Origin: Hyphomicrobiaceae bacterium
GTDB taxonomy: Bacteria > Pseudomonadota > Alphaproteobacteria > Rhizobiales > HXMU1428-3
Assembly: GCA_021775775.1 (NCBI GenBank)
Contig: JAJFHF010000205.1
Coordinates: 1-41,034 of the forward strand
DNA length: 41,034 nucleotides
Direction: 5' to 3'
Shown here: piece after piece, positions 2,549-7,094 of the stretch
Numbering within the stretch: position 1 is the first letter of the stretch
Layout: every line of letters starts with the position of its first letter
Program-made: the position numbers and the translations under genes
Notes under the pieces: model-generated
What the model was told of the DNA's origin: nothing
What the model saw: only the letters and a program-made list of their open reading frames with translations
The model's database searches: none

Positions 2549-2766
2549 GCATACATACAACAGCCCTAGATTGGATGTTCTGTTCTCATTGATTGGTGAT
2601 ACAGCTTAAAAAGACTCAATATTTTGCATTGTCCTTCACGCTTATCATAAAACGCCCAGTTCTCTTAGAAAGCTCTCAGGAAGCAGCCGCTTTTTCACAA
2701 TTAAGGGCAATTAGAGGGGGTTTCAGCGCTTGTTTCGTATGTACAAAGCTCTTTTGTTTCGCTATA

Positions 2767-2828: not shown

Positions 2829-2918
2829 ATGAAAAATTGGACAACACCTCAAGTTTCTACAACTGAAACAGGCATGGAAGTAACTAGCTACATGCCAGCT
2901 GAATTGGATCGTGCATAA
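2829..2918 (+). CDS. pqqA: PQQ precursor peptide PqqA, copy 1 of 3
   Basis: 29-residue peptide, too short for ordinary gene callers. It carries the family core GMEVTSYMPAEL, with Glu17 and Tyr21 in the E-x3-Y spacing whose side chains PqqE joins to build pyrroloquinoline quinone. The rest of the peptide is discarded by proteolysis in the known pathway. TTAGGAG lies 8 bases before the ATG. A private terminator follows, so this copy forms a monocistronic unit ahead of the biosynthetic operon. The encoded peptide is identical to copies 2 and 3; relative to copy 2 the gene differs at three third-codon positions only. Confidence 0.95.
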   Translation: MKNWTTPQVSTTETGMEVTSYMPAELDRA

Positions 2919-3238
2919 GCTTTAACGCTTATTGCGAACAATATAGTTTTTAAAAACCGATGGGTTATTCGCCTGTCGGTTTTTTATTTTGTAAAGTTTC
3001 GTTTTTGATGTTTTTCAAATAACTTGATCAATAAATAGAAATAATCTCTCTTACATTTTTTTAAAATTCAGACCCTCCTCAGACGACTCTCAAATGATTC
3101 TCATAATCATCAGCGAATTCCCCCCTGATAGTGATCAATCTAAGGTATTCATCTAAATTTATGATTATCTTTTCTCTTCAGCCCTACTTATATTTGAAGG
3201 ACTAAGACGATAAACTTTTAACTAAGGATAGATTGAAA
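2919..3238. other. Intergenic leader between pqqA copies 1 and 2
   Basis: 320 bases without a gene. It holds the terminator of copy 1 and then an AT-rich leader for copy 2. At 3095-3109 the sequence TGATTCTCATAATCA resembles a Fur-type 7-1-7 box, with 12 of 14 defined positions matching. AAGGAT at 3225-3230 is the weak ribosome binding site of copy 2. I see no clear -35/-10 pair that stands out from the AT-rich background. Confidence 0.4.
2955..2990 (+). terminator. Terminator after pqqA copy 1
   Basis: AACCGATGGG pairs with CCTGTCGGTT (two G-T wobbles) around a 7-base loop and is followed by a run of T. The stem sequence is unrelated to those after copies 2 and 3. Confidence 0.85.
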
Positions 3239-3328
3239 ATGAAAAATTGGACAACACCTCAGGTTTCTACAACTGAAACAGGTATGGAAGTAACTAGCTA
3301 CATGCCAGCTGAATTGGACCGTGCATAA
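3239..3328 (+). CDS. pqqA: PQQ precursor peptide PqqA, copy 2 of 3
   Basis: Encodes the same 29 residues as copies 1 and 3, including Glu17 and Tyr21 of the cross-linking motif. It differs from copy 1 at three bases (CAA/CAG, GGC/GGT, GAT/GAC) and from copy 3 at seven, all silent. The eight bases before the ATG (GATTGAAA) are shared with copy 1, while the farther flanks are unrelated, so the duplication is old or the flanks were replaced. Its ribosome binding site is weaker than that of copies 1 and 3. It has its own strong terminator. Confidence 0.95.
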   Translation: MKNWTTPQVSTTETGMEVTSYMPAELDRA

Positions 3329-3663
3329 GCCATCTGGTCAGAATTATAATAGCTTCAAATTAGTCAAGCCATTATAATTTAATAACTTGAAACTGGCGGG
3401 ACAATTATTGCCCGCCAGTTTTTTTATCTCTATACGTGCCCCAATTTGAATGAATGAAAAACTCACAAATCAGTATTGTCTTACGATTCTCTCAGGAATC
3501 CGTTTAAAATGCATCTAAATTGCATATTACTTTCAAACTAACTAGGTAAATTGAATTTCTTAATTTGAAAAAAACATTACACTGCTCTTATGCATAGCAT
3601 TTCAATGCTTTTAAACTTTGAGTGCTTTGCAATTTTTAACTAAACTTTTAAAAGGAGAATGAC
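3329..3663. other. Intergenic leader between pqqA copies 2 and 3
   Basis: 335 bases without a gene. It holds the terminator of copy 2 and the AT-rich leader of copy 3, which ends in a strong AAAAGGAGA ribosome binding site at 3650-3658. Direct repeats of the type GCATTT/GCAT occur around 3509-3607, but I find no symmetric operator or convincing promoter hexamers. Confidence 0.35.
3391..3427 (+). terminator. Terminator after pqqA copy 2
   Basis: Perfect 10-bp stem, AACTGGCGGG with CCCGCCAGTT, a 10-base loop, and a T tract. This is the strongest of the three pqqA hairpins. Confidence 0.9.
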
Positions 3664-3753
3664 ATGAAAAATTGGACAACACCTCAAGTTTCTACTACAG
3701 AAACAGGCATGGAAGTAACCAGTTACATGCCAGCTGAATTGGACCGCGCATAA
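3664..3753 (+). CDS. pqqA: PQQ precursor peptide PqqA, copy 3 of 3 (operon-proximal)
   Basis: Third gene for the identical 29-residue precursor, with Glu17 and Tyr21 in the family core. It is the most diverged copy in DNA: six silent changes from copy 1 and seven from copy 2. It has the best ribosome binding site (AAGGAGA, 5 bases before the ATG). It lies 246 bases before pqqB with a weaker hairpin in between, the usual arrangement in which pqqA is made in excess and some transcripts read through into pqqBCDE. This is probably the ancestral copy. Confidence 0.95.
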   Translation: MKNWTTPQVSTTETGMEVTSYMPAELDRA

Positions 3754-3793
3754 GCGTTTTTCCAATCAGATAGACAGTAATATGTCTATATTA

Positions 3794-3827
3794 GGCGGTG
3801 ATGGAGCATTTTTCATCGCCGTCTTTT
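3794..3827 (+). terminator. Partial terminator / attenuator between pqqA copy 3 and pqqB
   Basis: GGCGGTGATG pairs with CATCGCCGTC with two wobbles around a 10-base loop, but only four T residues follow. A leaky hairpin here would give high pqqA and low pqqBCDE expression, as known for other pqq operons. The leakiness is inferred from the short T run. Confidence 0.6.
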
Positions 3828-3999
3828 AGAAGATCTTTTACTGACCTTTTGAACTAATCTTTTGTATCGTCCCTTTGATTTTTATCATTGAACTTTTTTG
3901 ATCAGTGCTGCACTTTGTGAATAATAAAAATAAATAAATTCAATGGTTAAATTGCTTCCAATATGAGGAAGTTTATCGGGGGAAGGAAACCGTTTTATA

Positions 4000-4932
4000 A
4001 TGAAAATAAAAGTTTTAGGATCTGGTGCTGGTGGTGGTTTGCCACAATGGAATTGCAACGCGATTAATTCAAGAGATGCCCGCCAAGGCCATGAATTTGT
4101 AAAGCCGCGCAGCCAATCTTCCATTGCGGTGTCGGCCAATGATAAAGACTGGTTGTTGCTCAATGCCTCCCCCGATATTCGCCAACAAATTTTTGATAAT
4201 AAAGAGCTGCACCCGCATGAAGATGGGCCCGTACGGAATAGTCCTATTCAAGCTGTGATGCTGACCAATGCTGATGTTGATCATATCACTGGTCTTTTAT
4301 GTCTACGTGAGGGACATGCATTTAATATTTACGCCTCTGACCGGGTGATGAGTACGTTGAATACGAATTCTATTTTTTCTGTTTTAAACAAAGAGAAAGT
4401 TCACAGACATACAATTTCACAAAATGAACCATTTGATGTAACGGGCGCTGAGGGATCACTTGGGCTGAAAGTGACAACGTTTAATGTTCCTGGAAAAATC
4501 GCACTGTTTCTAGAAGATGCCTCTGATAGTAAAAACTTTGGTAGCTCTGAGGGTGATACCATTGGAGTGAATGTGGAAGATATCGCAACGGGTAAGAATT
4601 TTTATTATATTCCCGGCTGCGCTGAACTTGATGCCCCCCTAAAGGAACGGCTGATAGGGGCTGATCTTTTGTTTTTTGATGGCACGCTATTTACCAATAA
4701 TGAAATGCTTGATCAAGGGCTGCTGCCCAAAACAGGCGAGCGTATGGGACATATGAACATGTCAGCAGACAATGGCTCTTTAGCGGCCTTTAAAGACCTG
4801 AACATTACCCAAAAAATTTATATTCACATCAATAACTCAAACCCAGTTTTGCGCGATAATTCACCTGAACGTAAACAGGTTGAAGACGCTGGATGGCAAG
4901 TGTCCTATGATGGCATGGAGGTAAACTTATGA
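4000..4932 (+). CDS. pqqB: PQQ biosynthesis protein PqqB
   Basis: 310 residues, normal for PqqB. Metallo-beta-lactamase-like fold. The N-terminus KVLGSGAGGGLPQWNC is the family hallmark, followed by SSIAVSAN, the metal-ligand region ADVDHITGLLCLREG, and C-terminal GHMNMS and KIYIHINNSNPVL. Reported work on PqqB assigns a hydroxylation of the Glu-Tyr intermediate; older work proposed transport. Translation starts at the ATG after GGGGGAAGGA. The stop overlaps the pqqC start (ATGA), so the two are translationally coupled. Confidence 0.97.
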   Translation: MKIKVLGSGAGGGLPQWNCNAINSRDARQGHEFVKPRSQSSIAVSANDKDWLLLNASPDIRQQIFDNKELHPHEDGPVRNSPIQAVMLTNADVDHITGLLCLREGHAFNIYASDRVMSTLNTNSIFSVLNKEKVHRHTISQNEPFDVTGAEGSLGLKVTTFNVPGKIALFLEDASDSKNFGSSEGDTIGVNVEDIATGKNFYYIPGCAELDAPLKERLIGADLLFFDGTLFTNNEMLDQGLLPKTGERMGHMNMSADNGSLAAFKDLNITQKIYIHINNSNPVLRDNSPERKQVEDAGWQVSYDGMEVNL

Positions 4933-5669
4933 CAGAGCTTTTGACCAGAGACGAATTAGAGGCCGCTTTGCGCCAAATTGGTGCGACCCGTTATCATAAC
5001 CTACATCCCTTTCATAAATTGCTACATAGTGGCAAATTAAATAAGGGGCAAGTACAGGCCTGGGCTTTAAACCGATATTGTTATCAAGCAGCGATCCCGC
5101 GCAAAGATGCAGCGTTCATGGCCCGCACCACATGCCGCGAATTGCGCCGTGAGTGGATTCATCGGATTGCAGATCATGATGGTGATGGGATTGAAGAAGA
5201 AGGTGGCATTGAGCGATGGCTCGCCCTGACCACCGGCCTGGGGATTGATCCAGAGATTGTGATTTCAACCAAGCAGGCATTGCCCGCGCAAGTTCACGCG
5301 GTTGAAGAATATGTGGAATATGTCAAACGCGGTCCCATAGTGCAAGCTGTCGCTTCATCTTTAACTGAGTTGTTTGCCCCTAAAATCCATGAAGAACGCA
5401 TCTCAGGCATGTTAGAAAATTATGATTTCATAGATGAAAGTGTTATGAAATATTTTCGCAGACGTTTAACCCAAGCACCGCGTGATGCTAATTTTGCCCT
5501 GAACTATGTACTTGATAATGCTGACACAGTCTCTTTGCAACAAAAAGCGCTAGAGGCTTTGACATTCAAATGCAATGTTTTATGGGCCCAATTGGATGCA
5601 CTTTATTTTGCATATGTAGAACCTGGCTTCATTCCGCCAGGTGCGTTTGACCCAAAAGAACTAGGATGA
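4929..5669 (+). CDS. pqqC: Pyrroloquinoline-quinone synthase PqqC
   Basis: 246 residues, typical length. PqqC is a cofactorless oxidase that closes the ring and carries out the final eight-electron oxidation to PQQ. The all-helical heme-oxygenase-like fold is visible in YHNLHPFHKLLHSGKL, WALNRYCYQAAIPRKDA, the DHDGDG segment and the helix beginning FALNYVLDNADT. The ATG lies in the pqqB stop (4-base overlap), and pqqD starts 4 bases after the stop. Confidence 0.97.
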   Translation: MTELLTRDELEAALRQIGATRYHNLHPFHKLLHSGKLNKGQVQAWALNRYCYQAAIPRKDAAFMARTTCRELRREWIHRIADHDGDGIEEEGGIERWLALTTGLGIDPEIVISTKQALPAQVHAVEEYVEYVKRGPIVQAVASSLTELFAPKIHEERISGMLENYDFIDESVMKYFRRRLTQAPRDANFALNYVLDNADTVSLQQKALEALTFKCNVLWAQLDALYFAYVEPGFIPPGAFDPKELG

Positions 5670-5673
5670 GATT

Positions 5674-5964
5674 ATGAACTCTCAACGCTTAATCATTGAT
5701 CGTGACACAACGCCAGCCTTGAAAAGTTTTGTTAAATTACGACATGACAAGGGGCGTGACCGTTGGATCATTCTAGCACCTGAGCGCATTCTCACACCTG
5801 ATGAGACGGCTGTTGAGGTTTTAAAATTATGTGATGGCAAAGATAGCGTTGGTAACATTGCTGGCAGTTTAGCCAAAACTTATAATGCACCAGTTGACGT
5901 GATTGAAAAAGACATTACCACCATGCTGCAAGATTTAAGTGACCAGGGATATATAACATCATGA
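5674..5964 (+). CDS. pqqD: PqqA-binding peptide chaperone PqqD
   Basis: 96 residues. PqqD is a RiPP recognition element: it binds the PqqA peptide and presents it to PqqE. Family signatures are FVKLRHDKGRDRWIILAPE, DETAVEVLKLCDGKDSV and the winged-helix end DVIEKDITTMLQDLSDQGYI. The ATG follows AGGATGAG. The stop overlaps the pqqE start by 4 bases (ATGA), matching the physical PqqD-PqqE partnership. Confidence 0.96.
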   Translation: MNSQRLIIDRDTTPALKSFVKLRHDKGRDRWIILAPERILTPDETAVEVLKLCDGKDSVGNIAGSLAKTYNAPVDVIEKDITTMLQDLSDQGYITS

Positions 5965-7094
5965 TAGAAGCACAAGATAACAATGCAGACGCCATTTGCG
6001 CCGTAGCGCCAATGGGGCTTTTGGCAGAACTTACACACAGATGCCCGTTGCAATGTCCTTATTGTTCTAACCCCATGGAATTAGAACGCTCTAGCGGCGA
6101 GCTCTCTACCCAAGATTGGGTGCGCGTATTTCAAGAAGCAGGTGATCTTGGTATTTTACAGGTTCATCTCTCTGGTGGTGAGCCAACAGTTCGCAAAGAT
6201 TTAGAAGAGATTACGCAAGCTGCTGTTGACGCTGGCATTTATACCAACCTCATCACAGCTGGCGTCTTACTGAATAAAGACCGCCTTGCCGGTTTACGTG
6301 ATATTGGGCTGGATCATGTGCAATTGTCTGTTCAACATGTTGACGCTAAATTGGCTGATAAAATAGCTGGCTTTAAAGGCGGTTATTCTAAAAAAGTTGA
6401 AGTGGCCAAATGGGTTAAAGAATTAGGTCTCCCCCTAACACTTAACTCGCCGATGCACCGCCATAATGTGGAATACCTTGAGGAAATTATTGAATTTGCA
6501 GTCAAGCTTGGCGCCGAGCGGCTTGAAGTGGCTCATATTCAATATTATGGCTGGGCATTTGAAAATCGAAATTCTTTGATCCCAACCAAAGATCAAGTTT
6601 ATAGAAATGCGGATATTGTTGATGAAGCACGTGAGCGTCTCAAAGGTGTGTTGAGCATTGATTTTGTGGTGCCTGATTATTATGCTGTTCGCCCTAAACC
6701 TTGTATGGGTGGTTGGGGAAGCCAGTTTGTTACCATCTCTCCCACTGGCAAAGTGCTCCCTTGTCATGCCGCGGCCTCAATTAAGGGGCTGGAATTTGAT
6801 AATGTAAAAGATAAGCACTTACGCGATATTTGGCTCCATTCTTCAGCTTTTGAAAAATACCGCGGGACTGACTATCTACCCGATCCTTGCAAATCATGTG
6901 AATTTAAAGAGGTAGATTTTGGTGGCTGTCGCTGCCAGGCCTTTATGTTTACAGGAGACGCAGCCAATACAGATCCAGCGTGCGCAAAATCTGTTCATCA
7001 TAAAGATTTGCTTGCGATTGCTGAGCGCGAATCAAAAGAAGAGAGCGAATTTTTATATCGCAAATTTACCAGCCAGAGAGAGCCTGCAGAGTAA
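5961..7094 (+). CDS. pqqE: PqqA peptide cyclase PqqE (radical SAM, SPASM)
   Basis: 377 residues. PqqE forms the C-C bond between Glu17 and Tyr21 of PqqA using S-adenosylmethionine. The radical SAM cluster motif C-x3-C-x2-C is at Cys28, Cys32 and Cys35 (RCPLQCPYC), followed by HLSGGEP. The C-terminal SPASM domain keeps its auxiliary-cluster cysteines (KVLPCHAA, DPCKSCEF, GGCRCQAF, DPACAKS). It is the last gene of the operon and runs tail-to-tail into alr 19 bases away without a clear terminator. No pqqF/pqqG-type protease gene is present here, so precursor cleavage must depend on genes elsewhere. Confidence 0.97.
   Translation: MIEAQDNNADAICAVAPMGLLAELTHRCPLQCPYCSNPMELERSSGELSTQDWVRVFQEAGDLGILQVHLSGGEPTVRKDLEEITQAAVDAGIYTNLITAGVLLNKDRLAGLRDIGLDHVQLSVQHVDAKLADKIAGFKGGYSKKVEVAKWVKELGLPLTLNSPMHRHNVEYLEEIIEFAVKLGAERLEVAHIQYYGWAFENRNSLIPTKDQVYRNADIVDEARERLKGVLSIDFVVPDYYAVRPKPCMGGWGSQFVTISPTGKVLPCHAAASIKGLEFDNVKDKHLRDIWLHSSAFEKYRGTDYLPDPCKSCEFKEVDFGGCRCQAFMFTGDAANTDPACAKSVHHKDLLAIAERESKEESEFLYRKFTSQREPAE

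Follow-up and report, generated by a model that had tools for sequence, protein, structure and literature searches.

Three pqqA genes ahead of pqqBCDE

The window, which is the whole stretch of 41,034 nucleotides analysed here, corresponds to contig C119 of a 2.7-Mb genome in 266 contigs, and the named near relatives of this genome are metagenome-assembled Hyphomicrobiales. PqqA is the precursor of the cofactor PQQ, and one PqqA is used per PQQ. Three pqqA genes, each followed by a hairpin, were found in the window 5' of an intact pqqBCDE cluster (4000-7094), all four genes of which scored above the NCBIfam cut-offs. G001 to G007 denote the other seven genomes of the genus.

2829-2918, forward strand: pqqA copy 1, a 29-amino-acid PqqA precursor (translation and codon comparison; TIGR02107 over the cut-off; flanks orthologous to the first pqqA of G001, G003, G006 and others)
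2952-2984, forward strand: intrinsic terminator of copy 1 (terminator scan; fold z -5.2; conserved in the genus with compensatory changes)
3239-3328, forward strand: pqqA copy 2, identical peptide (translation and codon comparison; extra in this species, flanks without clear homologue in the genus)
3389-3426, forward strand: intrinsic terminator of copy 2 (fold -21.9 kcal/mol, z -7.2, then a T-run)
3664-3753, forward strand: pqqA copy 3, identical peptide, proximal to pqqB (3' flank orthologous to that of the pqqB-proximal pqqA of the genus)
3793-3826, forward strand: terminator or attenuator hairpin between copy 3 and pqqB (z -5.0 for 3755-3835; conserved in the genus)
4000-4932, forward strand: pqqB (TIGR02108, 390 bits, cut-off 245)
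4929-5669, forward strand: pqqC (TIGR02111, 351 bits, cut-off 240)
5674-5964, forward strand: pqqD (TIGR03859, 68.8 bits, cut-off 46)
5961-7094, forward strand: pqqE (TIGR02109, 551 bits, cut-off 381)

Translation of the 29 codons of each copy gave one and the same peptide, MKNWTTPQVSTTETGMEVTSYMPAELDRA, which scored 32.3 bits against the NCBIfam PqqA model TIGR02107 (cut-off 20). The segment E17-V-T-S-Y21 is present in all copies and holds Glu and Tyr at the E-x3-Y spacing required of PqqA; these are the two residues that are joined to form PQQ. No solved structures matching the 29-residue peptide were found, and an Rfam search of the window gave no relevant match.

The initial annotation had described three pqqA genes for one peptide that differ only by silent changes, and our codon comparison agreed with it exactly, with 3 nucleotide differences between copies 1 and 2, 6 between copies 1 and 3 and 7 between copies 2 and 3. 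The 8 variable sites all fall at third codon positions and are synonymous, and the chance that 8 random changes would all be silent is about 4.5e-6 (18.7 synonymous sites of 87, calculated without transition bias). The repeated segment is about 100 bp long, with 97% identity between copies 1 and 2 and 86% for copy 3. Similarity between the copies ends a few bases beyond the start and stop codons, and the spacers, also described earlier as unrelated, do not align with one another.

The hairpins 3' of the three copies are strong (z -5 to -7) and have T-rich tails. The alignment of the copy 1 terminator across the genus reads AAACCG...CGGTTTTTT, and that of the copy 3 hairpin reads CGGTGRTGG...TTTCATCACCGTTTTT in 7 genomes. 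On the 5' side of the array are an open reading frame of 265 amino acids without NCBIfam match (1364-2161) and a small MoaD/ThiS-like protein (about 2297-2548), and this region aligns as DNA with the same region of most genomes of the genus.

Copy number and history of the array

A fourth pqqA, absent from the initial annotation, is located elsewhere in this genome, on contig C253. It encodes the peptide MTWTAPQVSTTETGMEVTSYMPAELDRA, and its neighbours are a quinoprotein-dehydrogenase-associated SoxYZ-like gene and a methylmalonyl-CoA mutase gene. The genome-wide count of four pqqA versus one pqqC places the genome among those with multi-copy pqqA and, as judged by pqqC, a single set of the other pqq genes. 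It also encodes several PQQ-dependent alcohol dehydrogenases, which are ExaA-like (best match 1FLG) or, in one case, closest to the quinoprotein ethanol dehydrogenase 6ZCV.

Two tandem pqqA before pqqB and one orphan copy were observed in five of the seven other genomes of the genus (G001, G003, G004, G006 and G007), while G002, which is 78% complete, has one orphan and one isolated copy. The closest relative by PqqC (91%), G005, has a single intact pqqA. Its copy 1 has decayed to a pseudogene, which lies about 525 bp 5' of the intact pqqA on the reverse strand of L043 and has the cross-linked Glu changed to Lys and the Tyr codon to a stop. A further pqqA adjoins a gene for a PQQ-dependent alcohol dehydrogenase in G003 (L038:4587-7137) and G002 (L036). 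Across 397 genomes of the order, pqqA was found in 130, with at least two copies in 75, at least three in 34 and up to eight in a single genome.

Alignment of the flanks matched window copy 1 to the first copy of the genus and copy 3 to its pqqB-proximal copy, and for the flanks of copy 2 no convincing homologue was found in the genus genomes. Judged from these flanks, the pair found across the genus corresponds to copies 1 and 3, which predate the genus, and copy 2 is an extra, later addition. In a pqqA tree built on 90 alignment columns, the coding sequences of the three window copies formed one clade (support 98/97), and trees holding the position-1 or the position-3 copies together were rejected (p-AU 0.0018 and 0.0007, respectively). 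Thr11 is common to all four copies of the window genome, and Glu occupies this position in the other copies of the genus except the orphan of G007.

Since the coding sequences group by genome and not by position, gene conversion has to be added to the old duplication. Recurrent gene conversion together with purifying selection fits these sequence patterns better than old duplication alone. The initial annotation had favoured an old duplication followed by purifying selection; the selection and, from flanks and terminators, the age of copies 1 and 3 hold, whereas copy 2 is later and conversion is needed as well.

Copies 1 and 3 of one genome resembled each other in amino acids more than copies from different genomes did (permutation P 0.033), and their pairing by genome at silent sites was not significant (synonymous P 0.24). 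In the close group of G001, G003 and G006, orthologues have 1-2 silent differences and paralogues 6-10, so that the positions evolve separately there. From these patterns we concluded that conversion is intermittent, with purifying selection acting throughout.

Purifying selection on independent copies of an old duplication, with the peptide kept by selection only, would suit the age of copies 1 and 3, the separate evolution of the positions in that group and the pairing by genome without a significant drop in synonymous differences, and part of what looks like conversion in the amino acids could be due to strong selection that keeps one peptide in each genome. We nevertheless consider this explanation unlikely, since the window copies form one clade, the position clades are rejected and Thr11 is present in all four copies of the window genome. 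Under redundancy, a further alternative, the copies would come from a recent chance duplication, drift, and be dispensable beyond one. The decay of copy 1 in G005 and a tandem copy number that ranges from 1 to 3 are consistent with redundancy, but all variable sites are silent, the copy-specific terminators are conserved, the two-copy array is retained in five other genomes of the genus and multi-copy pqqA is widespread (75/130 genomes), which makes redundancy improbable. An assembly artefact, in which a single gene was collapsed or repeated in this fragmented assembly of 266 contigs, is very improbable, since the spacers differ and orthologous two-copy arrays are present in other assemblies, some of them on contigs of 0.4-1.3 Mb.

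Upstream CTYA repeats and the leader of the orphan copy

A CTYA repeat with an 11-bp phase was observed about 140-195 bp 5' of the tandem pqqA copies. Copy 2 has a perfect version and copy 3 a good one; the repeat of copy 1 is weak, as are those of several tandem copies of the relatives. The candidate operators of the window are listed below with P values from shuffle tests, which are post hoc because the element was spotted by eye in alignments of the same regions and tested afterwards.

2653-2678, forward strand: candidate operator of copy 1, CGCC-N7-CTTA-N7-CTCA in 11-bp phase, core TTAGAAAGCTCTCA (the weakest of the three, P 0.076)
3078-3103, forward strand: candidate operator of copy 2, CTCA-N7-CTCA-N7-CTCA (12/12, P 0.007)
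3469-3494, forward strand: candidate operator of copy 3, ATCA-N7-CTTA-N7-CTCA (11/12, P 0.007)

The spacing of 11 bp was uniquely the best at several tandem copies (12/12 at window copy 2), and none of the orphan pqqA copies tested had a significant CTYA-N7 repeat. The strict core has four sites in the 2.7-Mb genome, which are upstream of pqqA1, of pqqA2 and of an ExaA-like quinoprotein dehydrogenase on contig C22, with one elsewhere. Since a reversed-pattern control also gave four matches in the genome, the placement of the core is informative and its number is not. Related CTYA repeats are found 5' of the corresponding dehydrogenase in G001, G003 and G004.

Regulators of the OmpR/PhoB family bind operators near promoters that consist of direct repeats spaced at about 11 bp. 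In G003 and G004, a gene pair for an OmpR-family regulator and a kinase adjoins that ExaA-like dehydrogenase. The window genome has this regulator too, at 88% conservation. From these features we infer that the CTYA repeats may be operators of the tandem pqqA copies. Such pairs of an OmpR-family response regulator and a histidine kinase, beside an ExaA-like dehydrogenase with 11-bp-phased CTYA repeats upstream, were recorded at L208:1410-3757 (regulator at 3074-3757) and L207:6650-8955. A sigma-70 promoter scan found promoters no more frequently than in shuffled sequences, and the output of an unsupervised motif search over every upstream region was dominated by orthologous leaders and the end of the MoaD-like gene.

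The orphan fourth pqqA has a conserved promoter-like box and, directly 5', a predicted leader RNA of about 105 nt (C253:78-189, equal to L033:78-189), with orthologues on L035, L037, L040, L042, L045 and L046. The leader occurs once per genome in 7 of the 8 genomes of the genus. Of the 19 proposed pairs, ten show changes on both sides, and pairing is kept in 96% of the alignment cells compared with at most 47% in slid controls, the alignment being fitted to the model, which favours it. The stability of single-sequence folds was not unusual. No leader was found beyond the genus in the 397 genomes of the order under strict filters, no relevant Rfam match was obtained at E up to 1, and the literature on riboswitches and pqqA, judged from titles and abstracts, contained nothing naming a pqqA leader.

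What is new here lies outside the window and is this conserved and, by the alignment, covarying leader of the orphan pqqA, which is without Rfam match and was found in the genus only. It could reveal how PQQ supply is sensed in these bacteria. A speculative extension, to which we give little weight, is that PqqA is produced in two regulated modes, one being the homogenised array driven with the alcohol dehydrogenase by an OmpR-type regulator and the other the orphan with a new riboswitch-like leader that would sense PQQ, lanthanide or a related signal.

A proposed dosage model and known multi-copy pqqA

We propose that the three genes are arranged to raise the gene dosage of the precursor peptide PqqA. 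Since PqqA is consumed one per PQQ, it is needed in excess over the enzymes, and with its own terminator and its own CTYA repeat each copy resembles a short gene in its own right that supplies PqqA in bulk. Each would form its own short transcription unit of CTYA element, ribosome binding site, coding sequence and terminator, and the three would share their induction with alcohol oxidation, probably via the OmpR-family response regulator. The pqqBCDE genes would be transcribed less, by polymerases that read through the terminator behind copy 3. The peptide would be kept identical because every copy must suit the same PqqD, PqqE and PqqB, and the coding parts would be homogenised by conversion while the spacers drift. 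We put the probability of this whole model, from dosage and joint switching to read-through and homogenisation, at roughly 0.65; what we infer from sequence features is the role of the CTYA repeats as operators, the regulator involved, the separate transcripts, the read-through and the dosage effect.

The initial annotation had suggested that extra copies raise PQQ output or allow separate regulation of supply. The former is plausible, and PqqA availability is reported as rate-determining in Methylovorus sp. MP688, which has five pqqA (Ge et al. 2015, as cited in PMC11317620). Separate regulation is less likely for the array copies, which share one type of upstream element, and would fit the orphan fourth copy better. 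The array would be a clean case of keeping a peptide precursor that is consumed one for one abundant, by terminator-bounded mini-genes of which only the coding part is homogenised, and it names a shared candidate operator.

Extra pqqA genes in some methylotrophs, mentioned in the initial annotation, are indeed published for Hyphomicrobium, Methylobacterium, Methylorubrum, Methylovorus and other Methylophilaceae. Hyphomicrobium denitrificans FJNU-6 is, like the window genome, a member of the Hyphomicrobiales with several pqqA; its five copies are unequally expressed, one being with pqqBCDE and the others orphan, and unlike the window array its extra copies are dispersed, with one in a pqqADE operon (PMC9851590). 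Methylobacterium aquaticum 22A, a methylotroph of the same order, has pqqA1A2BCDE, in which, as likened by gene listing, duplicated pqqA stand with pqqBCDE as two copies compared with three in the window (PMC4392154). The Methylophilaceae have 3-12 pqqA copies (PMC4109929); they and Methylovorus sp. MP688, the latter as cited in PMC11317620, resemble the window genome in having many pqqA with a single set of the other pqq genes, but they are Betaproteobacteria. The orphans pqqA2 and pqqA3 of Methylorubrum extorquens are regulated apart from the main operon, and their expression responds to the lanthanide source (PMC11317620), which is a possible parallel to the fourth copy of the window genome.

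The exact arrangement, which was unfamiliar when the locus was first annotated, is not unprecedented. In G271 (family f42) three tandem pqqA lie 155 bp apart and encode near-identical peptides, which is a triple array as in the window, although one copy differs by two residues and the family is different. G008, also of another family, has five pqqA for one identical peptide with 1-10 nucleotide differences, the same pattern as in the window species. Given the published multi-copy pqqA, the 75 of 130 genomes of the order and the G271 array, the window array is ordinary in kind, and related bacteria that oxidise methanol and alcohols were known before to carry extra pqqA.
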